Positions 28,633 through 40,419 of a DNA stretch of 64,000 bases are shown here, in pieces. The notes below the pieces were generated by a model. It was not told where the DNA came from and did no database searches. It was given only the letters and a program-made list of their open reading frames with translations. The DNA is taken from positions 1,878,909 to 1,942,908 of the forward strand of contig NZ_JACHGY010000001.1 in the NCBI RefSeq assembly GCF_014207595.1, given 5' to 3'. Numbering within the stretch: the stretch's first letter is position 1; every line of letters starts with the position of its first letter. A program made the translations under genes and the position numbers. Origin of the DNA: Algisphaera agarilytica (GTDB lineage Bacteria; Planctomycetota; Phycisphaerae; Phycisphaerales; Phycisphaeraceae).

Positions 28633-29142
28633 ATGAGTGAGCACGAAACGACCAACGACTTCTTGGAAGAGGATAACGATCACGATCTGTTGCAACTTGT
28701 GAGTTTTGAGATCGGCGTTGAGGAGTACGCCATCCCGATCCTCGCAGTTCAGGAGATCAACCGGATGATGCCGATCACCCGGGTGCCTCACTCCCCCGCC
28801 GCGGTGGAGGGTGTGATCAATCTGCGTGGCCGGATCATCCCCGTTATCGACATGCGTAAACGCTTCGGCCTCAAGCCTTCGGCCGACGAGGGCGATGCCC
28901 GTGTCATCGTGGTCGAAGTAGGCAATGTCGGCCGAGTGATCGGCTTCACCGTCGACCGCGTGCATGAAGTGCTCCGTCTCGACAAGACCATTATCGACCC
29001 TGCCCCGACCGCCGGCAACGGCGTCAAGGCCGACTTCATCTGCGGGGTGGGCAAACTCGAGGATCGGCTGTTGATCCTGATCGATCTCGAACGGCTGTTC
29101 ACCCGCGAAGACTTCATCGACGCCAACGGCCTCGCCGCCTGA
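28633..29142 (+). CDS. cheW: Chemotaxis coupling protein CheW
   Basis: 169 residues. One CheW SH3-like domain: LVSFEIGVEEYAIPILAVQEI, the conserved INLRGRIIPVIDMRKRFGL, and FTVDRVHEVLRL. CheW bridges chemoreceptors and the kinase CheA at the inner membrane. It is the first gene of a six-gene che operon. A short acidic N-terminal tail precedes the domain. Confidence 0.93.
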   Translation: MSEHETTNDFLEEDNDHDLLQLVSFEIGVEEYAIPILAVQEINRMMPITRVPHSPAAVEGVINLRGRIIPVIDMRKRFGLKPSADEGDARVIVVEVGNVGRVIGFTVDRVHEVLRLDKTIIDPAPTAGNGVKADFICGVGKLEDRLLILIDLERLFTREDFIDANGLAA

Positions 29143-29213
29143 CCCCCGAACCTCTCCACGCGTGGGATCACCAAGCCCGCGACACCTCTCTGTATTCCGA
29201 GCCAGGACCCATC

Positions 29214-30065
29214 ATGCCCACGACCAAACGGCTAACCCTCTCCGACGCACAGTTCGAAACACTCCGCAAGGTCGTCTATGACCGCTCGGGCATCCACTTC
29301 CAAGACTCCAAGAAGTACGTCCTCGAGTCGCGGCTGTCGCGCCGCCTCGAAGAGCTTGAGTTCGACGACTACGACCAGTACCTAATGTTCCTGACCTCCG
29401 GCCCGTACCAGACCGACGAATTCCAGGAGATGTTCAACCGCATCACCATCAACGAGACCAGCTTCTTCCGCAACGAACCGCAACTCGACGTGTTCGAGCA
29501 GCGCATCCTGCCCGAGATCCTCGAGAAGCGCAAGAGCAGCAAGACGCTGCGTCTCTGGTCCGCCGCGTGTTCCTCTGGCGAAGAGCCCTACACCCTGGCC
29601 ATGATCCTGCACCGCTCGCTGGGTATCCGCCTGGCGGACTGGAAGATCGAGATCCTGGGCACCGACATCTCCGAGAAGGTCCTGAACATCGCCAACGGCG
29701 GCCGCTATCCGCACTACGCGGTGAAGTCCACCAACCCGATGGTGCTGTCGCGTTATTTCAAGCAGGAAGGCCGTGAGTACATCCTCGACCCCGAGATCAT
29801 GAGCATGGTCCACTTCGAGAAGCTCAATCTCAAAGACACCTACGCCGCCCGGCGGTTCGGCACGTTCGACGTGATTTTCTGCCGCAACGTGATGATCTAC
29901 TTCGACGACCAGATGAAGACCAACTGCGTGAAGATGTTCCACAAACAGCTTGCCGACGACGGCACGCTGATGATCGGGCACAGCGAATCGCTGCGAAACC
30001 TCGACGTGAAATTCACCCAACTCAACATCCCCCAAGGCTTCGCGTATCAAAAATCCGACGCCTAA
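29214..30065 (+). CDS. cheR: Chemoreceptor glutamate methyltransferase CheR
   Basis: 283 residues. N-terminal all-helical CheR_N (residues ~8-65), then a SAM-dependent methyltransferase domain with RITINETSFFRN, the SAM motif LWSAACSSGEEPYTLAM, LGTDIS and VIFCRNVMIYFD. The C-terminal MIGHSESL segment is also typical. It methylates receptor glutamates during adaptation and is opposed by the CheB encoded downstream. No TPR extension or C-terminal pentapeptide-binding insert is visible beyond the usual beta-subdomain. Confidence 0.93.
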   Translation: MPTTKRLTLSDAQFETLRKVVYDRSGIHFQDSKKYVLESRLSRRLEELEFDDYDQYLMFLTSGPYQTDEFQEMFNRITINETSFFRNEPQLDVFEQRILPEILEKRKSSKTLRLWSAACSSGEEPYTLAMILHRSLGIRLADWKIEILGTDISEKVLNIANGGRYPHYAVKSTNPMVLSRYFKQEGREYILDPEIMSMVHFEKLNLKDTYAARRFGTFDVIFCRNVMIYFDDQMKTNCVKMFHKQLADDGTLMIGHSESLRNLDVKFTQLNIPQGFAYQKSDA

Positions 30066-30107
30066 TCACGCCCGACCCACCGCATCGAGCGAAAAGAGAG
30101 AATCACG

Positions 30108-32426
30108 ATGAACGACATGGACGCCAGCCTGCTACAGGATTTCCTCACCGAGTCTTCGGAGCTGATCGAGCAGCTCGACCAAGATCTGGTCACCCTCGAG
30201 TCCGCGCCCGAGTCCGAGCAGGGCGACATCTGCAACAGCTGCTTCCGTGCGCTGCACACCATCAAGGGCGCCGCAGGCTTCCTGGGGCTTGAGCCCGTGA
30301 TCGAGTTCGCCCACGCCGCGGAAGACGCGCTCAACCGCCTGCGCAGGGGCGAAGTCGCGGTGAGTGCCCAGGTGATGGACCTGCTGCTGCAGTCGGCGGA
30401 TGTGGTCCGCGGACAGATCGAACAGCTCGCCGCCGGCGAATCGCCGAGCCCGGCCGACCCCGCCCTCATCGCCGCCCTTAACGCCATCGGCAGCGACGAC
30501 GCCGGCGCGGACGCTTCGGCGTCTACGGATGACGCGCAGGAAACCGATGCATCTTCCGAAAACGACGCCGAGCCCGGCGAGCCCCTCGAGCTCGGCCCGC
30601 AAAAGATGGACCTGATCGAGTTCATGGTCACCGACCTGCAGGACTACTCGGCCCAGCTCACCGACACCATCCGTCAGGTCACCAACGACGCGACCCGCTC
30701 CGAGGCCGCTGAGCAGCTCGGCGAGATCGCCGACAACATGGTCAAGACCGCCGACTTCTTCGAGCTCGACGACCTGACCGCGGTAACCCAGCTCATGTTC
30801 GAGGTCGCGCCGAAGCTCAACGACCTGTCGTCTGAACTCGTCGCGGAAATCGAAGTGCGTCTGCGTGCGGCCAAGTGGATCATCGACAAGCAGGCCGAGG
30901 CGCTGGGCAAACTCCGTGTGTTGTCCTGGCCGTTGGAGACGTTCCTGCAACGCCTGAGCCAGCTCGCCGACGGGGAACCCCTGGACGCCGACTTCGCCAC
31001 GAAACACGGCGGCGAGGTCGAGCAGCTGCTGATCCTCGATGGCATCGTGGACGAGCCCGCCGCGGCCGAGGTGCTCGACGATATCGCCGGCAAGATCGAG
31101 CCCGCCGAATCCGAAACCCCTGCCCCGCCCCAGGCCAACGAGCCCGCGGCCCCCGCTGCGCCCCAGGCCGCCCCGAAGGCCGCCAAAGAGCCGGGCCCCA
31201 AAACCGCGGCCCAGGTCGAGCAGACCATCCGCGTTGAAGTCGGCCGGCTCGAGTCGCTGCTGAACCTCGTCGGCCAGTTGGTGCTGAATAAGAACCGCGT
31301 GGTCGCGCTCAGCCGAACGGTGGGTGAGGCCGGCATCGAGCAAGAACTCAGTGAATCCTTCGCCGAGGCCGCCGGCGACCTGGATCGCCTCACCAGCGAA
31401 CTCCAGGTCGGTGTGATGCGCACCCGCATGCAGCCGCTCGCTAAGCTGTTTGATCGCTACCCCCGGGTTATCCGCGACATCGCCCGCCACACCGACAAGA
31501 AGATCAACCTCGAGATCGTTGGCAAAGACACCGAGGTCGACAAGTCCGTCCTCGAGCTCCTGGCCGACCCGTTGGTCCACATCCTCCGCAACTCGGCCGA
31601 CCACGGCATCGAGTTGCCCACCACCCGTGCAGACAACGGCAAGACCGAAGAGGGCACGATCAGCCTCTCGGCCGAGCACCAGGGCAGCCACGTCCGCGTC
31701 GCCATCACCGACGACGGCAAGGGCCTCTCACGCCAGGTCATCGGTGGCAAGGCGATCGAGAAGGGTCTGGTCACGCCCGAGGCGTTGGCCAACCTCGCCG
31801 ACGAAGAAGTTTTCCGCTTCATCTTCGAGGCCGGCTTCTCCACCGCCGCCCAGGTCTCCGACCTCTCGGGCCGCGGCGTGGGCATGGACGTGGTCCGCAC
31901 CAACATCAGCAAGCTCAACGGCGCGATCAACATCATGTCGACCGAGGGCCAGGGCACGACGATCGAGATCCTCATCCCGCTGACCGTCGCCATCATGCCC
32001 GCGATGATGATCGAGTCTGACTCCGACCAGTACGCGATCCCGCTGCAGAGCATCGTCGAGATCATCCGCCCCGAAGACGCATCGATCTCTTCGATCCAGG
32101 GGCAACAGGTCGTGCGGTTGCGCGACAGCGTGCTGCCGCTCATCGATCTGCGCGACCGCTTGGGCCAGCCCCCGCTGCCGCCCGAGCAGCGTTTCGCGGT
32201 CGTGGTCAAGGTCGGTGCACAGCAGATCGGCCTCGTGGTCGACGGCCTGATCGGGCAGCAGGAAATCGTCATCAAACCGCTCGAAGACGGCTACACCGAG
32301 GGCGGGCCGTTCTCCGGTGCCACCATCCGCGAAGACGGCCGGGTGTGCCTGATCCTCGACGTGATCCAGCTCATCAAGACCCCTTGCGGCACGCCTCAGC
32401 CTCACGGCGACCGGGCGGCCGCGTAA
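30108..32426 (+). CDS. cheA: Chemotaxis histidine kinase CheA
   Basis: 772 residues. Hpt domain at the N-terminus with phosphorylated H50 in FRALHTIKGAAGFLG. A long second region (~165-330) may be a divergent helical domain; a canonical CheY-binding P2 is not obvious. An Ala/Pro-rich linker (~330-370) leads to the dimerisation helices (IRVEVGRLESLLNLVGQLV), the ATPase with N-box PLVHILRNSADHGIE, G1 DDGKGLS and G2 GRGVGMDVVRTN, and a C-terminal CheW-like domain. All catalytic boxes are intact. Receptor-controlled phosphoryl donor for CheY and CheB. It follows cheR by 42 bases. Confidence 0.93.
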   Translation: MNDMDASLLQDFLTESSELIEQLDQDLVTLESAPESEQGDICNSCFRALHTIKGAAGFLGLEPVIEFAHAAEDALNRLRRGEVAVSAQVMDLLLQSADVVRGQIEQLAAGESPSPADPALIAALNAIGSDDAGADASASTDDAQETDASSENDAEPGEPLELGPQKMDLIEFMVTDLQDYSAQLTDTIRQVTNDATRSEAAEQLGEIADNMVKTADFFELDDLTAVTQLMFEVAPKLNDLSSELVAEIEVRLRAAKWIIDKQAEALGKLRVLSWPLETFLQRLSQLADGEPLDADFATKHGGEVEQLLILDGIVDEPAAAEVLDDIAGKIEPAESETPAPPQANEPAAPAAPQAAPKAAKEPGPKTAAQVEQTIRVEVGRLESLLNLVGQLVLNKNRVVALSRTVGEAGIEQELSESFAEAAGDLDRLTSELQVGVMRTRMQPLAKLFDRYPRVIRDIARHTDKKINLEIVGKDTEVDKSVLELLADPLVHILRNSADHGIELPTTRADNGKTEEGTISLSAEHQGSHVRVAITDDGKGLSRQVIGGKAIEKGLVTPEALANLADEEVFRFIFEAGFSTAAQVSDLSGRGVGMDVVRTNISKLNGAINIMSTEGQGTTIEILIPLTVAIMPAMMIESDSDQYAIPLQSIVEIIRPEDASISSIQGQQVVRLRDSVLPLIDLRDRLGQPPLPPEQRFAVVVKVGAQQIGLVVDGLIGQQEIVIKPLEDGYTEGGPFSGATIREDGRVCLILDVIQLIKTPCGTPQPHGDRAAA

Positions 32427-32549
32427 TCCATGAAACCTCGGGTTGGGCGTGAATCGTCGCCCCGCCCCAGCCGATAGAGAAAAAGGTCGTGCACTGAGGA
32501 CCGATCCCCGCAACCACCATCTGTACTCATATTCATCCAGGAGAGCCCT

Positions 32550-33029
32550 GTGGACAGCCAATTCATCATCCCGTTCATTGATTCGGTGACCAACGTCTTC
32601 GAGACGATGCTCCAGCTCAAGGTGGAAGTCGGCACCCCGTCGATCAAGCCCGCCGAGTCCGAATCGCACGACGTGTCCGGCATCATCGGCATGTCCGGCG
32701 ACGTCGAAGGCACCATCGTCCTGGGCTTCCCCACCGCCAGCGCCGAACGCGCGGTCGCTGTCTTCACCGGTATGGAGATGGACTCGAAGCACGAAGACTT
32801 CGCCGACGCCATCGGCGAGCTGGTCAACATGGTCTCCGGCGGCGCCAAGGCCAAGTTCACCGATCGTAAGGTCAGCATCACCTGCCCCTCGGTCATCGTC
32901 GGCCAGCACCACACGGTCACCGGCCGCAAAGACATACTTACCATCCACATTCCGGTCGAATGCGACCTGGGCAACTTCAGTGTCGATGTTTCGATCCGCG
33001 ACGCCCTGGCCTCCGAAGCCGCCGCGTAA
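32550..33029 (+). CDS. cheX: CheX-type CheY-P phosphatase
   Basis: 159 residues from a GTG start with AGGAG 6 nt upstream. The CheC/CheX fold is recognised from FIIPFIDSVTNVFETML, GIIGMSGDVEGTIVLGFP and the phosphatase helix FADAIGELVNMVSGGAK, where the E..N pair inserts into the CheY active site. It carries one such helix, as CheX does, rather than the two of CheC. It would remove phosphate from the CheY encoded 100 bases downstream. No cheZ, cheC or cheD is present in this operon. Confidence 0.87.
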   Translation: MDSQFIIPFIDSVTNVFETMLQLKVEVGTPSIKPAESESHDVSGIIGMSGDVEGTIVLGFPTASAERAVAVFTGMEMDSKHEDFADAIGELVNMVSGGAKAKFTDRKVSITCPSVIVGQHHTVTGRKDILTIHIPVECDLGNFSVDVSIRDALASEAAA

Positions 33030-33130
33030 CGATTCCACCTCTTGTGGAGCCACCCGATTTACCCCAACCCGGCCTGCCGCTCAAAGCCCCGCCGCCAACC
33101 CGATCCATTTGATCCGACGAGGACACACTC

Positions 33131-33499
33131 ATGAAAGTGCTACTGGTAGACGATTCGAAAACGATGCGCAACATCCAGCGTGGCATCCTGACCCAGCTCG
33201 GCTACAGCCAGATCGAAGAGGCGGTGGACGGCCAGGACGCCTTGGATAAAGTCACGTCGTTCTGCCCCGAGCTGATCCTGCTGGACTGGAACATGCCCAA
33301 CATGGACGGCATCACCTTCATCAAGGAATACCGCAGCAGCGGCGCTACCACCCCCGTGATTATGGTCACCACCGAAGCCGAGAAGTCGCGCGTCGTGGAA
33401 GCCATCAAGGCCGGCGTGAACAACTACGTTGTCAAGCCGTTTACCCCAGATATTCTGAGTCAACGTATCCAGGAAACGCTCAGCAGAGCTGCGGCCTAA
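33131..33499 (+). CDS. cheY: Chemotaxis response regulator CheY
   Basis: 122 residues, a stand-alone receiver domain. Acid pocket D7/D8, phosphoacceptor D52 in LILLDWNMPNMDG, T80/T81 in VIMVTTEAEKS and K102 in YVVKPFTPD. GAGG lies a few bases before the ATG. Phosphorylated CheY would bind the flagellar switch; no flagellar gene is in the window. Confidence 0.92.
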   Translation: MKVLLVDDSKTMRNIQRGILTQLGYSQIEEAVDGQDALDKVTSFCPELILLDWNMPNMDGITFIKEYRSSGATTPVIMVTTEAEKSRVVEAIKAGVNNYVVKPFTPDILSQRIQETLSRAAA

Positions 33500-33571
33500 C
33501 CGCGCCGGGTGGCCGGTCGGGGTGATAGGTCCGGGGTGTGTAAATTAGTACAGTCAACGGAGACGTGTGCG

Positions 33572-34618
33572 ATGCGCATTCTGATCACAGATGACTCGGC
33601 CTTCATGCGGCTGGCGATCGGCCGGACGCTGGCGGAACAGCCCGACTTCGAGATCGTCGGCCGGGCCTGCGACGGCCGCGAGGCCGTCCGGCTCGCCAAG
33701 GAGCTCCGGCCCGACGTCATCACCATGGACATCGAGATGCCGGAGATGGACGGGTTGACCGCGCTCCGCCGGATCATGCGTGAAGCGCCGACTCAGGTGC
33801 TCATGTGTTCCACGCTGACGACCGAGGGGTCTTATCAATCGCTGCAGGCCCTGCGCTTGGGCGCGGCCGATGTCATACCAAAGCAGCTCAGTGCTGATCC
33901 GCAGGTCAAGCAGCGTTTTCTCGACGACCTGGTCCGCCGGGTCCGGGGGCTGGGCGAGAGCAACCGCCACAAACAGCAATCGTCGGACGTCGCGCCTGCG
34001 GTGTCGGACGCGCTGCCCGAGATCGATGCGTCGCGGATGGAGATGGTCTGCATCGCGTCTTCGACGGGCGGGCCGCCGGTGCTGGAAACACTGCTGCCCA
34101 GCCTGCCGGCCACGCTGCACATACCGGTGGTGGTGGGTCAGCACATGCCCCGGCTGTTCACCGAATCGATGTCACGTCGTCTTAACGACATCTGCCCGCT
34201 GCCTGTGATCCACGCCGAGAACGGGATGGAACTCGAAGCGGGCAAGGTCTACATCGCCCCCGGCGAAACCCACACCCATATCGAACGCGTGTCGTTGGCC
34301 AAGTGCGGCCTGCGCATGAGCGACGAACCGCGCGAGTCGTTGTATAAACCCTCGGCCGACGTATTGTTCGAAACCGCCGCGAAAGTCTGCCAGCAACGCG
34401 TGCTGGGCATCATCCTGACCGGTATCGGCGACGATGGATTGAAAGGGGCCCGGGCCCTCCACGAATGCGGTGCCCCCCTTCTCGCCCAGGACCGCTATTC
34501 TTGCGTGGTCTACGGCATGCCGCGCGTGGTCGCCGAAGCGGGCTATGCCACCGCGTCACTCACGCCGGACGACATCGCCAAGACACTGAGCGGTCTGACC
34601 GCTCGCGCCGCAGCGTGA
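33572..34618 (+). CDS. cheB: Chemotaxis methylesterase/deamidase CheB
   Basis: 348 residues from ATG 33572; an upstream in-frame ATG lacks a ribosome site. Receiver domain with D53 in VITMDIEMPEMDG, then a linker, then the CheB esterase with catalytic Ser in IASSTGGPPVLE, His in VVGQHMPRLFTESM and Asp in LTGIGDDGLKGA. It removes methyl groups from receptor glutamates and is activated by CheA. Last gene of the operon; a family B hairpin starts 24 bases after its stop. Confidence 0.93.
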   Translation: MRILITDDSAFMRLAIGRTLAEQPDFEIVGRACDGREAVRLAKELRPDVITMDIEMPEMDGLTALRRIMREAPTQVLMCSTLTTEGSYQSLQALRLGAADVIPKQLSADPQVKQRFLDDLVRRVRGLGESNRHKQQSSDVAPAVSDALPEIDASRMEMVCIASSTGGPPVLETLLPSLPATLHIPVVVGQHMPRLFTESMSRRLNDICPLPVIHAENGMELEAGKVYIAPGETHTHIERVSLAKCGLRMSDEPRESLYKPSADVLFETAAKVCQQRVLGIILTGIGDDGLKGARALHECGAPLLAQDRYSCVVYGMPRVVAEAGYATASLTPDDIAKTLSGLTARAAA

Positions 34619-34714: not shown

Positions 34715-35788
34715 TTAGTACGCATTGCGTTTACGCACCGGGATTTGTTCGATGCGTAGGCTCGCCAGCGATTGGGCGATCTGCTGGCCGGTTTCGCCAC
34801 GGCCGTAGGGTTGGCGGAAGCGTCGCGTGTTGAGGCCGAGAGTTTGTTGGATCGCTTGGGTGACGCCGCGCTTCCCGTAGCCACAGGAAACCACGGAGTT
34901 GGGCGTTTCCCGTCCGCCTTGCCGCGGGCCGATGTTGACCGCGGGTGTCTTGCAGACGGCGGCTTCGATCAGTCCGGCGGAGGAGTTGCCCACGATCAAC
35001 CGAGCGGCTTTGAGACGGGCGATGAATTCGTGGCGTGGCAGGTGATCCACGACTTCGACGCCAGCTTCGTGGATCGCTTGCGCGATGCCGTTGCGGCCGG
35101 GGTCGTGATTGGGGGCCATGACTAGGCGGGAGAACTTGGCGGTGGCTTGCAGTGTGCCACGCATGCGCTGGTGTTCGGTGGCGTCGTCGTCCCCGATGGG
35201 GTGCTGCATGACGATGATCTCGGGTGCGTCTTCCGCTGGGGCGATGTCGCTCAGGCCATCCGCCGCGGGTGAGCCGTGGTTGAAGACCGTGGCGGGGTCT
35301 TCCCCCATGCGGATGAGGCGTTTGCGGCTCTGAGCGGTGGCAGGGAAGTGCAGGTGGGCGAGTTTGCTGATCGCGTGGCGCATCGCTTCGTCGGCCACGC
35401 CCTCGGCCCGGTCGCCGCCGTGCAGGTGGGCGACGCGGATCCCGGCGATCGATGCTGTGCTCGCCGCGGCAAACGCTTCGATACGGTCGCCTAGCACGAG
35501 CACCACATCGGGCTTGAGCTGCGCAAACGCCTCGGCAAATACACTGATGCCCCGCCCCGTCGCTACCGCGTCGTGATGCCGCCCCACGCGATCCGGCTTC
35601 TGCATCCGCACCTTCGCCGCGATTGGGAAGGCGATGTCTTGGTGTGTTCCGGTGACAAGGTGCATCCCCGCCGCAACGCATTGAAGCGAGAGCTTGGGGT
35701 GCGCGTCGATGGCGCGCATCACGGTTTCGAGCAGGCCGTACTCGGCCCGCGTCCCGGTGACGACTGCGATGTTGCGGGGTGACGCCAT
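34715..35788 (-). CDS. neuC: UDP-N-acetylglucosamine 2-epimerase (hydrolysing), NeuC-like
   Basis: 357 residues from ATG 35788; in-frame codons upstream are the translation of a hairpin and were excluded. GT-B-fold epimerase features: VVTGTRAEYGLLETVM at the N-terminus, VLVLGDRIEAFAAA, VAHLHGGDRAEG, and LIVGNSSAGLIEAAVCKTPAVNIGPRQGGRE in the UDP site. The enzyme releases ManNAc (or the diacetyl-bacillosamine equivalent for legionaminic acid), the first step toward nonulosonic acids. It is the last gene of the maf-SPASM-neuA-neuC group. No neuB synthase is adjacent. The precise sugar cannot be decided here. Confidence 0.82.
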   Translation of the reverse strand: MASPRNIAVVTGTRAEYGLLETVMRAIDAHPKLSLQCVAAGMHLVTGTHQDIAFPIAAKVRMQKPDRVGRHHDAVATGRGISVFAEAFAQLKPDVVLVLGDRIEAFAAASTASIAGIRVAHLHGGDRAEGVADEAMRHAISKLAHLHFPATAQSRKRLIRMGEDPATVFNHGSPAADGLSDIAPAEDAPEIIVMQHPIGDDDATEHQRMRGTLQATAKFSRLVMAPNHDPGRNGIAQAIHEAGVEVVDHLPRHEFIARLKAARLIVGNSSAGLIEAAVCKTPAVNIGPRQGGRETPNSVVSCGYGKRGVTQAIQQTLGLNTRRFRQPYGRGETGQQIAQSLASLRIEQIPVRKRNAY

Positions 35789-35799
35789 GAGCAAGGCCT

Positions 35800-35862
35800 G
35801 TAGGGTGGGCACCGCCCACCACGAAGCGGCAAGATCGGCGCGGTGGGCGGTGCCCACCCTAC
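35800..35862. repeat. Perfect 21-bp inverted repeat inside the operon
   Basis: Arms 35800-35820 and 35842-35862 are exact reverse complements (core gggtgggcaccgcccacc) around a 21-base loop. The hairpin fills most of the 94-base gap between neuA and neuC. It has no U tract, so attenuation, mRNA processing or a mobile palindrome are all possible. Confidence 0.85.
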
Positions 35863-35882: not shown

Positions 35883-36602
35883 TCACCCTGCCGCCCGGCC
35901 GCGTTCCTCGGCCTGCAGCTTCAGCGTGGCCTCGGCGACGATCAGGTCTTTGGCTTCGTCGATGTCGATCACTTCGCCGGGCTCGGTGACGACGACACGA
36001 CGGTCGGTGCCGAGGAAGGCGTGGGGGTTGGCCGGGTCGATCTTGAACAGGCTCTCGCGGGTGACGGCGATGACGCCGCCGTCGAGCTGATACAGCGGCG
36101 GCAGGTCTTGCCGGCGGTAGACGCTGTTGGGCTCGTAGGGCTCCATCACGTCGTCGTTCTCGCCGGTGAGCGACTTCATCCAGTAGGGGTGGTGCTTGCC
36201 GACGGGGCAGACGGACTGGACCGAGTCGCAGCCGGTCTCGATGAGCTTGTCGAGGGCGCGTTGGGTCAGGTCGTCGGGGCGGACGGGCACGTTGCCGTAG
36301 AGGATCACGATGTGCTCGTGGTTGCCGATGATCGAGGTCACGGCGTGCCGGGCGGCGGCGTCGACGGTTGCGGTGTCGTGGGCAAACTCGTACGGCCGGG
36401 TGACGACTTCGACGCCCAGGTGTCGGCCGATCTGCGACATCTCGTTGCTGTCGGTGGACAGCAGGATGCGGTCGAGGCCGGGGGTTTCGAGGGCGTGTTC
36501 GATGGTCCACGCCAGGCAGGGCTTGCCGGCGACGGGGAGTTGATTTTTGTGCGGCAGGCCTTTGCTGCCGGCACGGGCGAGGATCACAGCGAGAGCGTTC
36601 AT
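35883..36602 (-). CDS. neuA: NeuA-like CMP-nonulosonate cytidylyltransferase
   Basis: 239 residues, the typical size. N-terminal nucleotide-binding loop ALAVILARAGSKGLPHKN with the conserved RxGSKG, then LPVAGKPCLAWTIEHAL, ILLSTDSNEM, ILYGNVPVRPDDL and LYQLDGGVIAVTRESLF, with IDIDEAKDL near the end. It activates a nonulosonic acid (sialic, legionaminic or pseudaminic acid) with CTP. KDO cytidylyltransferase KdsB is a relative, but the spacing and the NeuC neighbour favour the NeuA/PseF group. Confidence 0.82.
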   Translation of the reverse strand: MNALAVILARAGSKGLPHKNQLPVAGKPCLAWTIEHALETPGLDRILLSTDSNEMSQIGRHLGVEVVTRPYEFAHDTATVDAAARHAVTSIIGNHEHIVILYGNVPVRPDDLTQRALDKLIETGCDSVQSVCPVGKHHPYWMKSLTGENDDVMEPYEPNSVYRRQDLPPLYQLDGGVIAVTRESLFKIDPANPHAFLGTDRRVVVTEPGEVIDIDEAKDLIVAEATLKLQAEERGRAAG

Positions 36603-36674: not shown

Positions 36675-38390
36675 CTAGCACGATACCGGGGCTGTAGCCT
36701 CAACCCGCCGCATCGACCACCAATCGTGGCACCGCCGACACACCGGCGAATCGTCTCGCCCGCCCGGGATTTCCAGCGTTGGAACGCCCGCCCAGAGCTC
36801 CAAAAGCATGTTATCGGAAGCGTTGCCCAGGCTCGCCCGGCCAAGCGCATCCTGCCCGCAGAGCGTGACCGTGCCGTCGGACAGGACCGTGATCCGACGC
36901 TTGACCTGGTGCAGACTCGGTTGCTTCCACGGCGGGTCCATCGGCACGGGGTTCTGGTCCGGGGCCAACGCAAAGCTGCCCTTGCCCAGCGTCGGCGGGC
37001 GCTCGATCACGGCATGCCCCACGACCTGCATCCAACGCTCGAAGAACATCTCCATGTCCTTGAGCGTGTCGGCGGTCTTTACGAGTCGCGGGATGATCCA
37101 CGGCAGACCCGCGGCGGGGAGCTGGTCGCTCGCTGAGGTCGTCGTTGCCCGCCGGTCGAACAGCCACTGCAGGTTGGCCATCACTTCGGGCAGGCGGTCG
37201 ATGCCCATCACCTTGGAGTAGGTCGCGGCGGTGTCGGCGTTCACGCGGACGCTGAGGATGTCGATCGGCAGCTCAGTCAGCGGCGCGAGTTCGTCACGCG
37301 GCGAGAGTAAGTCGGTTTCGAGGTGCAGCCCGAACACGTCGGCCTCGGTGGCGGCTTGAACGAGTTCGACCCATTGCGGGTGGAGCAGCGCGTCGCCGAG
37401 CCCGCCGAGGGTGACGGCTTTACCGGCGCATTGGGCGAGCAGGTCGCGGGCCAACCCGAGGTCCATCTCGCTGCGTGGGAGGTCGACGTGGTGTTGCGGG
37501 ACGATCGGACCGTCGGGGATGCGGCGCGGGGTAAGCTCGATGGTGATCTGCTCGGGCAGGTCGGCAAAGACGTGTTCGGGGTGGTCGAGTTCCCAAACGC
37601 GACAGGCGTCGGTGATGGCCACGGCATCCGCGTCGGCGAAGCCATCACCGAGTTGATCTGCGACGCGATGCAGACGTTGCATCCCCGCCGGGCTGTCGAA
37701 GATGAACCGCCGAGCGGTGTCGCGGACGCTGGCGGCGATGGGCAGGTTGCACTCTCGGCCGATGGGGTCGATCGCGGGGCGTTTGGGGTTGTAGGCGAGC
37801 GCACTGCCGAAGGTCGCCTGCTTCTCGGCGAAGTCGTGCAGCACCTCACGGCTGGTCACGAGCGGGCTCAGCCCGGGCGGGGCCTGGGTGAAGACGAGCT
37901 TCATCGCGTCGGGCGCGTCGAGGTGGATGTCGAGCAGTCCGTCGGCGTAGCCCGGATCGAACGCACACCAGTCGCCCCCCACAAGCACCGCGGCCTCAGC
38001 GTTGAAGCGGTCCATCGCCAACGCGAGCGGCGCGGCGGGCAAGAGTTCGTCCCACGCGGTTGCGCCGGCCAAGCCGCCCCGCCAGCCGGACAACGCCCAC
38101 TTGCGGGCCGAGCGGATGCGCGGGGTGAACGTGTCGCCGGCCACGTCGCCATGAGCGAAGGTTTCGATGGGCTTGGCGAATGCAGAGGTGTCGATGTGGG
38201 CCAGCGGGTCTTGCCCCGGCTGATGCAGCACGACGACTCGGCCGACGCGTCCGATGCGCGTGGCGCGTTGCAGTGTGTGCCACAGCGCCGGCCGGCCCGC
38301 GAGCGGGGCATGCAGGTCGCGCGCATGACCCAACCGCCCCGCCGAGACGTCGGCCACGATCAACGCGATGACAGATGCGGGGTTGCTCAT
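36675..38390 (-). CDS. NTP-transferase-like / degenerate radical-SAM / SPASM protein
   Basis: 571 residues. Residues ~1-170 resemble a cytidylyltransferase (VIALIVADVSAGRLGHARDL, APLAGRPALWHTL, RVVVL) but lack the RxGSKG loop. Residues ~280-480 follow a radical-SAM barrel pattern: ITIELTPRR (282-290) and GGLGDALLHP (329-338), the usual GGEP-like strand. The expected CxxxCxxC at 289-300 is replaced by RIPDGPIVPQH, so no [4Fe-4S]/SAM site remains. The C-terminus is SPASM-like (VLSDGTVTLC at C511, CRRC at 551-554). It starts 7 bases after maf stops, so the two are translationally linked. A catalytic radical role is doubtful; sugar-nucleotide binding or glycosylation accessory role is inference. 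Confidence 0.6.
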   Translation of the reverse strand: MSNPASVIALIVADVSAGRLGHARDLHAPLAGRPALWHTLQRATRIGRVGRVVVLHQPGQDPLAHIDTSAFAKPIETFAHGDVAGDTFTPRIRSARKWALSGWRGGLAGATAWDELLPAAPLALAMDRFNAEAAVLVGGDWCAFDPGYADGLLDIHLDAPDAMKLVFTQAPPGLSPLVTSREVLHDFAEKQATFGSALAYNPKRPAIDPIGRECNLPIAASVRDTARRFIFDSPAGMQRLHRVADQLGDGFADADAVAITDACRVWELDHPEHVFADLPEQITIELTPRRIPDGPIVPQHHVDLPRSEMDLGLARDLLAQCAGKAVTLGGLGDALLHPQWVELVQAATEADVFGLHLETDLLSPRDELAPLTELPIDILSVRVNADTAATYSKVMGIDRLPEVMANLQWLFDRRATTTSASDQLPAAGLPWIIPRLVKTADTLKDMEMFFERWMQVVGHAVIERPPTLGKGSFALAPDQNPVPMDPPWKQPSLHQVKRRITVLSDGTVTLCGQDALGRASLGNASDNMLLELWAGVPTLEIPGGRDDSPVCRRCHDWWSMRRVEATAPVSC

Positions 38391-38397
38391 GGGAGGG

Positions 38398-40419
38398 TTA
38401 CGCGGCGGGGGTGGCGATCTTGCGCGACGGCTTGGCCGAGGCGTTGGCGTTGATCTGGATATCCGGGGAGCGTGACTCGCGCTTGGCGCGTTGCGTCACA
38501 CGCCCGTGCGCCTCGCGAAAGATGACGAGTGCTTCGTCGCAGGCCTGGATGATCCAGTCGATGTTGTCGCGGTCGCGCTCGAGCTGGGCGGCGAGTTTTT
38601 CCTTGGAATTCCCCGCGTCTTTCGCGATCGAGCGGTCGGTGCGGTTGCGGCGGTACGAGCCGATGGTGTTGAGCTGGTTGACCAGGGCGAAGGGCTCTTT
38701 GAGGTCGCCCTCGACGCGCTTGCGGTTGCGGTCAAGCTTGGTGAAGTGCTGGTCGAGTTTCTTCTTGTCACCCTTCTCCAGGCATCGGCCCATTTTGCGG
38801 ATGAGTTCGATGCTGTCGCGGGACATGCGTTTGAGTTCGAGGGTCTGCGTGATCCGCTGGTTGAGCAGCGCGTCGAGTTGGCCCAGGCGGTCTGCATCCA
38901 GCTTGCGCGGCGGGACGGGCAGCGTCGGCACGGGGCGGGTGGCGTGCTGGGCGATCGCGTCGGCGAAAGTGAGGCGGGTGGTGTGGGCCTTGGGCATGCC
39001 GCCCTCGGTGGCGTCAATGACGAGTTGATCGTCGGCCTCGGCGTCGGCGAAGTCGCGCTCGAACTGCTTGAGGTAGGTGATCATCTGCTCGTCGGAGAAG
39101 ATCGGTCGGCCGTGCATATCGTCGAATCGGCGGAGGTGGCCCCGCATGCGGACGATGCGTTGCCACTCCATCATCTCGATGGTGTTGAACGGGTTGAGTT
39201 CGCAGTCCCACACCTGGTGGACCGCGGTGCCGGGGGCGTAGTAGAGCCCGTCGGAGAAGCCAAGGTCTTGGCCGATGAACATGATCGGATCGCAGCCGAG
39301 GTGCTGGGCGAGGTAGAACGACAGGTGGGCGACGGTCGCGCCGCCGCGGATGGGCACGATCTCTCGGCCGAGGCCGCCGGTCGCGGGGTCGCCGAGAAGT
39401 TGGTCGTTGAACGCATCACGGCAGACGCGGACGGGGCCGGGGAACGCGTCGAGGATGGCGGGGTTGGCCTTGGGCTCGGCGACGAGCGTGACGTTGGGAA
39501 GTTCGGGCAGGCCTTCGTAGAACCGGGCGCAGATCGGCGAGTAGTCGAGCGCCGTCACGAAGTCGGGCTGGACGCCGCGGTCCAGCAGCGGCTTGAGCGC
39601 CGTCTGCACCGCGATGACCACGATGTTCTTTCGCACCTCAGGGTCCTGCAGCAGGTGCACGTTCTTCACCAGGCTCGGCCCGGCGCCGACGCACACAGCG
39701 GGGTACCCCTTGGCCGCGTTGTGCAGCTCGTTGGTCGTCGCCCCGGCGGCGTAGACATCGAGGTTGTTGGCGAGGTTGCGGCAGGTCCGCGCGGCATTGA
39801 CTAGCGCGGTGGCGATGTTGGTCCGGCTGTAGGCGACGATGTCGGTGATGGCTTGGCCGAAGGCGTTGACCGCGTCGCTGTGTAGCTTGCGGGCGATCGG
39901 CAGCGTGACGAGCTGGGTGCCCTGGGTGAAGAGTTGGGCGTGGACCTCGGTGCGCGAGAGCAGCTTGGCCCGGTCGATGTCATCCCCGCCCCCGGAAAAG
40001 AGCATGACGTTGGGCTTGGCGAGCAGCTTCGACAGGTCGCGCTGCTCGAAGACCGCCCTGAGCAGCGCGGGGTCGGGCTCGTAGAGCAGGATCAGGGCGT
40101 CGTTCCCCAGAAGGTCGAGGGCGGCCTCGGCGTGGTAACCCAGCCCCAAGCCGAGCAGTACGGCACACGCGGTCTTGCCGGGGTCGAGGTCGCCCAGCAG
40201 TTTCTGGGCCTCGGCGGCGGGGTCGTATTTGCTGCACAGCGGGGTCGGCCGGCCGCCGGGGGCTTCGGTGGGGAGCGCGGCGATGGGCTGGCCGTTGCGG
40301 GCGGTGTCCCAGTCCAAGGCGGCGGGCGTGGTCTGCTCCAGTAGCTCGGCGAGCGCGGGGTCGTCGCCGCGGAGGGCATCGAGGTTGGCGCGCAGGATGT
40401 CGGGCACGGGCGTGGGCAT
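38398..40419 (-). CDS. maf: Maf/DUF115-family flagellin glycosyltransferase
   Basis: 673 residues. The central domain is DUF115/MptE-like: AVLLGLGLGYHAEAALD, VCVGAGPSLVKNVHLLQD, NIVVIAVQTALKPLLDRGVQPDFVTALDYSP and DPIMFIGQDLGFSDGLYYAPGT. The C-terminal ~200 residues are basic and helical. Maf proteins (motility accessory factors) transfer pseudaminic or legionaminic acid to flagellin before export. The neuA- and neuC-like genes downstream and the che operon on the other side agree with this. Flagellin is not in the window. First gene of the group. Confidence 0.82.
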   Translation of the reverse strand: MPTPVPDILRANLDALRGDDPALAELLEQTTPAALDWDTARNGQPIAALPTEAPGGRPTPLCSKYDPAAEAQKLLGDLDPGKTACAVLLGLGLGYHAEAALDLLGNDALILLYEPDPALLRAVFEQRDLSKLLAKPNVMLFSGGGDDIDRAKLLSRTEVHAQLFTQGTQLVTLPIARKLHSDAVNAFGQAITDIVAYSRTNIATALVNAARTCRNLANNLDVYAAGATTNELHNAAKGYPAVCVGAGPSLVKNVHLLQDPEVRKNIVVIAVQTALKPLLDRGVQPDFVTALDYSPICARFYEGLPELPNVTLVAEPKANPAILDAFPGPVRVCRDAFNDQLLGDPATGGLGREIVPIRGGATVAHLSFYLAQHLGCDPIMFIGQDLGFSDGLYYAPGTAVHQVWDCELNPFNTIEMMEWQRIVRMRGHLRRFDDMHGRPIFSDEQMITYLKQFERDFADAEADDQLVIDATEGGMPKAHTTRLTFADAIAQHATRPVPTLPVPPRKLDADRLGQLDALLNQRITQTLELKRMSRDSIELIRKMGRCLEKGDKKKLDQHFTKLDRNRKRVEGDLKEPFALVNQLNTIGSYRRNRTDRSIAKDAGNSKEKLAAQLERDRDNIDWIIQACDEALVIFREAHGRVTQRAKRESRSPDIQINANASAKPSRKIATPAA

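Follow-up and report, generated by a model that had tools for sequence, protein, structure and literature searches.

A 571-aa protein encoded between maf and neuA in the planctomycete Algisphaera agarilytica is probably a double pseudoenzyme that partners the flagellar glycosyltransferase Maf without being catalytic itself. Its two halves resemble a sugar-activating nucleotidyltransferase (NTase) and a radical-SAM/SPASM enzyme, and judging from sequence both have lost the residues on which catalysis would depend. We propose that the protein makes no 5′-deoxyadenosyl radical and activates no sugar. It would sit on Maf, as a separate subunit in the DNA studied here and, in sister families, as the C-terminal portion of Maf itself, and it may, more tentatively, help Maf to hold a protein acceptor, probably flagellin, through its barrel/SPASM surface. 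Radical-SAM/SPASM enzymes commonly have a peptide-binding surface of this kind. The one auxiliary [4Fe-4S] cluster expected in most relatives would serve as a structural or redox element.

Genomic context

We analysed a stretch of 64,000 nucleotides of the A. agarilytica genome (hereafter the window), in which the gene and its neighbors lie as follows:

38398–40419, minus strand: maf, flagellin glycosyltransferase-type with an MptE-like domain, directly upstream of the 571-aa protein gene (PF01973, E = 6.9e-36)
36675–38390, minus strand: gene of the 571-aa protein, an open frame from ATG to TAG (121 non-redundant full-length relatives, counting this copy)
35883–36602, minus strand: neuA/pseF-like CMP-nonulosonate synthetase (PF02348, E = 1.5e-17; TIGR03584 PseF, E = 1e-28, below cut-off)
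34715–35857, minus strand: neuC-type UDP-GlcNAc 2-epimerase (TIGR03568, 301 bits, cut-off 235.9)

Only 7 bases separate maf from the start of the 571-aa protein gene, and neuA and neuC follow on the same strand, which confirms the wedged position given in a preliminary description of this DNA. A neuB gene is found elsewhere in the same genome, so that the core steps of the nonulosonate pathway are present. In related operons NeuA and NeuB are fused in a single ORF with CTP_transf_3, NeuB and SAF domains (L055, 8210–9958; L056, 8407–10179; L117, 8932–10674). Facing the operon in the window is a chemotaxis-like gene run (28633–34618, plus strand) with CheW-, CheR-, CheA-, CheX-, CheY- and CheB-like genes, named by eye from their translations.

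Domain architecture and descent

The protein begins with a NeuA-related domain, continues as a radical-SAM barrel and closes with a SPASM/twitch end; its features are:

37581–38390, minus strand: NTase-like domain, residues 1–270, without RxGSKGxxxKN (hhalign against NeuA; NTP_transf_3 in 15/44 aligned members)
38046–38108, minus strand: A-RKW-x4-WRGG-x7-DE block, residues 95–115, more conserved than any other block in the protein and not present in NeuA
37011–37556, minus strand: radical-SAM-like barrel, residues 279–460 (TIGR04321 over residues 276–558; Pfam Radical_SAM in 35/44)
37500–37523, minus strand: former [4Fe-4S] site RIPDGPIV, residues 290–297, in place of CxxxCxxC (alignment with relatives)
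37392–37406, minus strand: GGLGD, residues 329–333, counterpart of the canonical GGE/GxGE motif with E replaced by D (family counts)
36726–36902, minus strand: SPASM/twitch end, residues 497–555, with C511, C551 and C554 (PF13186 over cut-off; BtrN alignment)

The 226 matching ORFs reduce to 150 non-redundant ones: 121 full-length, 26 with barrel and SPASM only, 2 partial (L177 and L223) and 1 with the N-domain only (L216), the last three being left out of the 121/26 split. All family counts refer to loci that were read, a subset of all genome matches.

Searched alone, the window protein has SPASM as its sole Pfam match (PF13186, 25.5 bits, cut-off 21.5), no match to Pfam Radical_SAM even at E = 10, and no match in a PDB sequence search; its best NCBIfam match is TIGR04321 (E = 3.4e-16, 59 bits, residues 276–558). 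Among the 44 relatives in our profile alignment, which are 18–51% identical to the window protein, Pfam finds Radical_SAM in 35, SPASM in 33, NTP_transf_3 in 15 and CTP_transf_3 in 2, and the 44-member profile matches the solved structures of BtrN (E = 8.1e-12) and of the cytidylyltransferase 6OEW (E = 2.4e-6). AlphaFold2, run on two sequences only (the window protein and L001), gave a poor model (mean pLDDT 37.4). The profile evidence (TIGR04321, Pfam and solved-structure matches) rules out a chance resemblance to radical-SAM and NTase proteins. It identifies the barrel as radical-SAM by descent, and points to a C-terminal half that as a whole descends from a radical-SAM/SPASM enzyme and in which the radical cluster is absent. 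The architecture had been implied to be peculiar to this gene; it belongs instead to a widespread family related to TIGR04321, which at this level of identity keeps intact ORFs across many families and near-invariant positions in its full-length members (R96, W103, R104, G106, E115, and G173), a sign of purifying constraint.

The likeness to NeuA/PseF lies in the N-terminal domain. When the N-domain of 81 stand-alone copies is compared by hhalign with 81 NeuA neighbors, the match has a probability of 94.6% (E = 6.5e-8), while three controls (NeuC, Maf, and the family's own C-terminal half) all stay under 1%. The difference lies in the RxGSKG..KN loop. Its conserved residues in NeuA (R8 in 81/81, S11 in 80/81, G13 in 81/81, and K17 in 80/81) have no counterpart in the aligned N-terminal domain, which carries the WRGG...DE block and APPGL instead. 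Profile match and loop comparison together bear out the proposal that the N terminus is NeuA without its active loop, and on this evidence the NTase fold of CMP-sugar synthetases is ancestral to the domain, which lacks their catalytic loop. Conservation in the block at residues 95–115, counted in the 81 relatives with an ORF under 720 aa, reaches 99% for R96, 98% for R104, 100% for G106 and 90% for E115.

Linkage to Maf

A survey of maf neighborhoods, suggested in the preliminary description, establishes the linkage: Maf is adjacent or fused in 111 of the 119 testable full-length copies (L014 and L217, near contig ends, are outside the test; L053, L104, L124, L136, and L215 were scored as Maf-adjacent from ORF tables rather than by the script rule). 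Maf and the 571-aa-type protein share a single ORF in 37 of the 119, and on the tree these fusions have two or more independent origins. No barrel-only relative has Maf nearby (0/26; for 14 of them less than 1.6 kb of upstream sequence was available). Across 201 genomes of the window's order, 152 have both Maf and the protein, 41 have neither, 4 have Maf only and 4 the protein only, an odds ratio of 390; of the four with Maf only, three (G001, G002, and G049) have a Maf that reaches the contig end.

The link between the protein and flagellin is looser among genomes of the order (odds ratio 52), and seven of them have the protein with no flagellin match (G069, G136, G170, G057, G148, G166, and G188). 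At the flagellin-less loci that were read (L058, L059, and L060, from G069, G136, and G170) the fusion partner of the protein is a Maf cut down to about 300 aa, and a Maf-like system may persist after loss of the flagellum and serve another client. Given these genomes and the 8 of 119 testable copies that are unlinked to Maf, flagellin cannot be the sole client everywhere. Those of the 8 that were scanned have unrelated genes as neighbors: L128 and L213 stand beside two-domain GNAT acetyltransferases, and L130 and L209 near ruvB. An orphan copy from the window's own family (L070, 6172–7995, in G031) lies beside a peptidyl-arginine deiminase and a SAM synthetase, with Maf on another contig; on the tree it falls within the fusion clade, among other families, which hints at transfer.

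For the role of the protein we favor acceptor recognition over donor delivery or assistance in Maf folding, as a preference and not a result. Maf binds flagellin directly, according to a study of Aeromonas (PMC4065374). Counting against our reading, the authors of that study describe Maf and its flagellin as a "genetically simple system", and their abstract names no such partner. For FlmG, a modular flagellin glycosyltransferase of Caulobacter, a separate flagellin-binding domain is reported to set specificity, making it a possible functional analogue with a binding domain beside the transferase (PMC7591256). A recognition module beside the transferase thus has precedent. Of the roles suggested in the preliminary description, that of a scaffold fits, while that of a sugar-nucleotide sensor found no direct evidence. 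FlmG belongs to a different transferase class from Maf and, to our knowledge, its binding domain is not derived from a radical-SAM protein.

The main rival to acceptor recognition is donor channeling, in which the NTase-like domain would be a dead NeuA that pairs with the real NeuA or passes CMP-nonulosonate to Maf. This would suit the profile homology between the N-domain and NeuA, the order maf, 571-aa-type protein, neuA, neuC in most of the window's order, and the fusions, which place the NTase-like domain next to Maf. However, neuA lies within 2.5 kb downstream in only 60 of the 95 copies that have 3 kb of downstream sequence, and 26 of the 35 copies without it keep Maf. Nor did the neuA-less loci that we scanned share a common downstream gene, the genes there being unrelated. 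The constant partner is Maf rather than NeuA or NeuC (111/119 for Maf against 60/95 for neuA). Because Maf is the constant neighbor we have lowered donor channeling from first choice, and now consider it unlikely.

Loss of the radical cluster site and fate of the twitch site

The barrel landmarks reported earlier, ELTPRRIPDGPIVPQHH (residues 285–301) and GGLGDALLHP (329–338), are indeed present in the translation, and so, by alignment, is the replacement of CxxxCxxC. Compared with Cys-bearing relatives, C-x3-C-x2-C aligns onto R290, G294, and V297 with the usual P298 next, and none of the eight cysteines of the protein (142, 214, 263, 321, 511, 551, 554, and 571) lies near the site. CxxxCxxC occurs at the site in 0 of 121 full-length relatives, a set found with profiles from Cys-less members in which Cys-bearing ones could be under-sampled, and in 25 of 25 readable barrel-only relatives, which have no N-terminal domain (L101 has no readable loop). 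In a quick IQ-TREE run with the columns of the trait left out, a single branch (support 99) separates the 121 full-length proteins from the rest, with one change of the motif.

Checking homologs for retained or relocated cysteines, as had been proposed, bore out the preliminary description, with no CxxxCxxC at the site and no replacement column among the 121 relatives: apart from the four twitch columns, no column reaches 60% Cys, and CxxxCxxC is found elsewhere, in the SPASM end, in 2/121. This column survey rules out relocation of the cluster cysteines. Since the loss is common to 121/121 full-length relatives, a sequencing error or one-genome pseudogene is rejected too.

Other positions have also changed. 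The GxGE motif and the Asn of the TN strand, which we take to be likely SAM-contact positions, are D333 and D360 in the window protein, which matches neither motif. At the first, D is present in 99 of 121 full-length proteins, while 24 of the 26 barrel-only relatives have E; at the second, N is present in 26/26 barrel-only relatives, and among the 121 full-length proteins N is found in 6 and D in 70.

Outside these counts, L223 (4006–5616) encodes a radical-SAM/SPASM protein of 537 aa that has CNARCVHC and whose N terminus is only doubtfully NTase-like (hhalign 49.9%); it might be close to the ancestral Cys-bearing form.

The SPASM end, described earlier as present, is recognized by PF13186 above its cut-off but is incomplete in the window protein, because the first of four twitch cysteines is replaced by L, leaving three of four ligands. 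The four twitch cysteines of the family align with the twitch Cys pattern of BtrN, and from BtrN we presume that they would hold a [4Fe-4S] cluster. All four are present in 75 of 121 full-length relatives, which suggests that the family probably kept its auxiliary Fe-S cluster after the radical one had gone; the window copy, with three ligands, may have lost it. Within the window's clade of 7 (support 99) the first twitch Cys is lost and the remaining three are kept in 6/7. The complete twitch site is gone in the fusion clade of the window's order (37 rows, support 98), and of the 37 Maf-fused copies only L131, outside that clade, has all four cysteines.

A surviving twitch cluster could also act as a redox- or iron-linked switch that senses redox state and gates Maf. 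Such a switch would make sense of a four-Cys site kept in so many relatives though the radical cluster is gone, and of C551 and C554, found in all full-length rows with those columns. It is harder to square with the missing first ligand in the window's clade and with 36 of 37 Maf fusions that keep the module without a complete Cys set, and a structural role accounts for the retention equally well, so that we hold a switch to be distinctly improbable. We give very little credence to the idea that the protein remains an enzyme dependent on SAM or Fe-S, its cluster held by unusual ligands: some elements of the SAM-binding frame are retained (G330, G332, T359, and Y391), but there is no replacement Cys column, the replacement letters vary across the family, and the other likely SAM positions show E to D and N to D changes. 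Equally far-fetched is a decaying remnant without function, to which one might assign the stepwise loss of the radical cluster, of one twitch Cys (window's clade) and of the complete twitch site (fusion clade), together with persistence in seven genomes without a flagellin match, but which the intact frames, the near-invariant residues across many families and the tight co-occurrence with Maf contradict.

Relation to known families

The closest named family is TIGR04321 (spiro-SPASM), which matches all 44 aligned members (best E = 1.5e-46) and in deep relatives extends into part of the N-terminal region (model positions 75–506 of 510). Its cut-off is 250 bits; the window protein scores 59 bits, and 0/199 genomes lie above. 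In silico replacement of Cys by Ala at CxxxCxxC in two relatives costs 9.0–9.3 bits on TIGR04321 versus 16–17 bits on TIGR04317/TIGR04311, and this lower cost suggests that members of TIGR04321, a family compared here through its model, keep the radical motif only in part. The haloarchaeal family TIGR04347 (pseudo-SAM/SPASM) is, to judge from its name, another radical-SAM/SPASM relative that lacks the motif; it is matched at E = 0.001 or better (best 2e-11) by 7 of the 44 members, and the window protein itself has no match. The solved structure closest to the family profile is that of BtrN, a radical-SAM dehydrogenase with a twitch domain that has a radical cluster and is an active enzyme. The NCBIfam names of TIGR04321 and TIGR04347 mean that this kind of protein is already known to annotators; what is new is the branch that is linked to Maf, bears an NTase domain and retains an auxiliary cluster site.

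Full-text literature searches returned nothing on spiro-SPASM or TIGR04321, nothing related on radical SAM with cytidylyltransferase and flagellin, and nothing on planctomycete flagellin glycosylation. Among the matches listed for flagellin glycosylation with Treponema, Maf or SPASM, none joined flagellin glycosylation and SPASM, and among those listed for pseudo-radical-SAM no such protein appeared in titles or at the start of abstracts. Maf itself is well studied, to go by the literature listed.

A broader history is possible, and we rate it at somewhat less than an even chance: a radical-SAM/SPASM enzyme carrying a dead NTase would have lost its radical cluster once, kept the auxiliary cluster only, become the acceptor-recognition subunit of Maf and merged with Maf at least twice, giving rise to a widespread class of Maf cofactors. 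If so, a pseudoenzyme of radical-SAM descent takes part in protein glycosylation. For the question of how Maf selects acceptor sites, a family linked to Maf in nearly all copies and fused to it in whole families offers a concrete second component, a partner that could show how Maf picks its target. In addition, the family offers a clean example from nature of a radical-SAM enzyme without its radical cluster that has kept the auxiliary cluster site, and could therefore be used to test what auxiliary clusters do alone. Finally, a search of plasmids returned matches to the barrel half only, several of them on Brachyspira plasmids.
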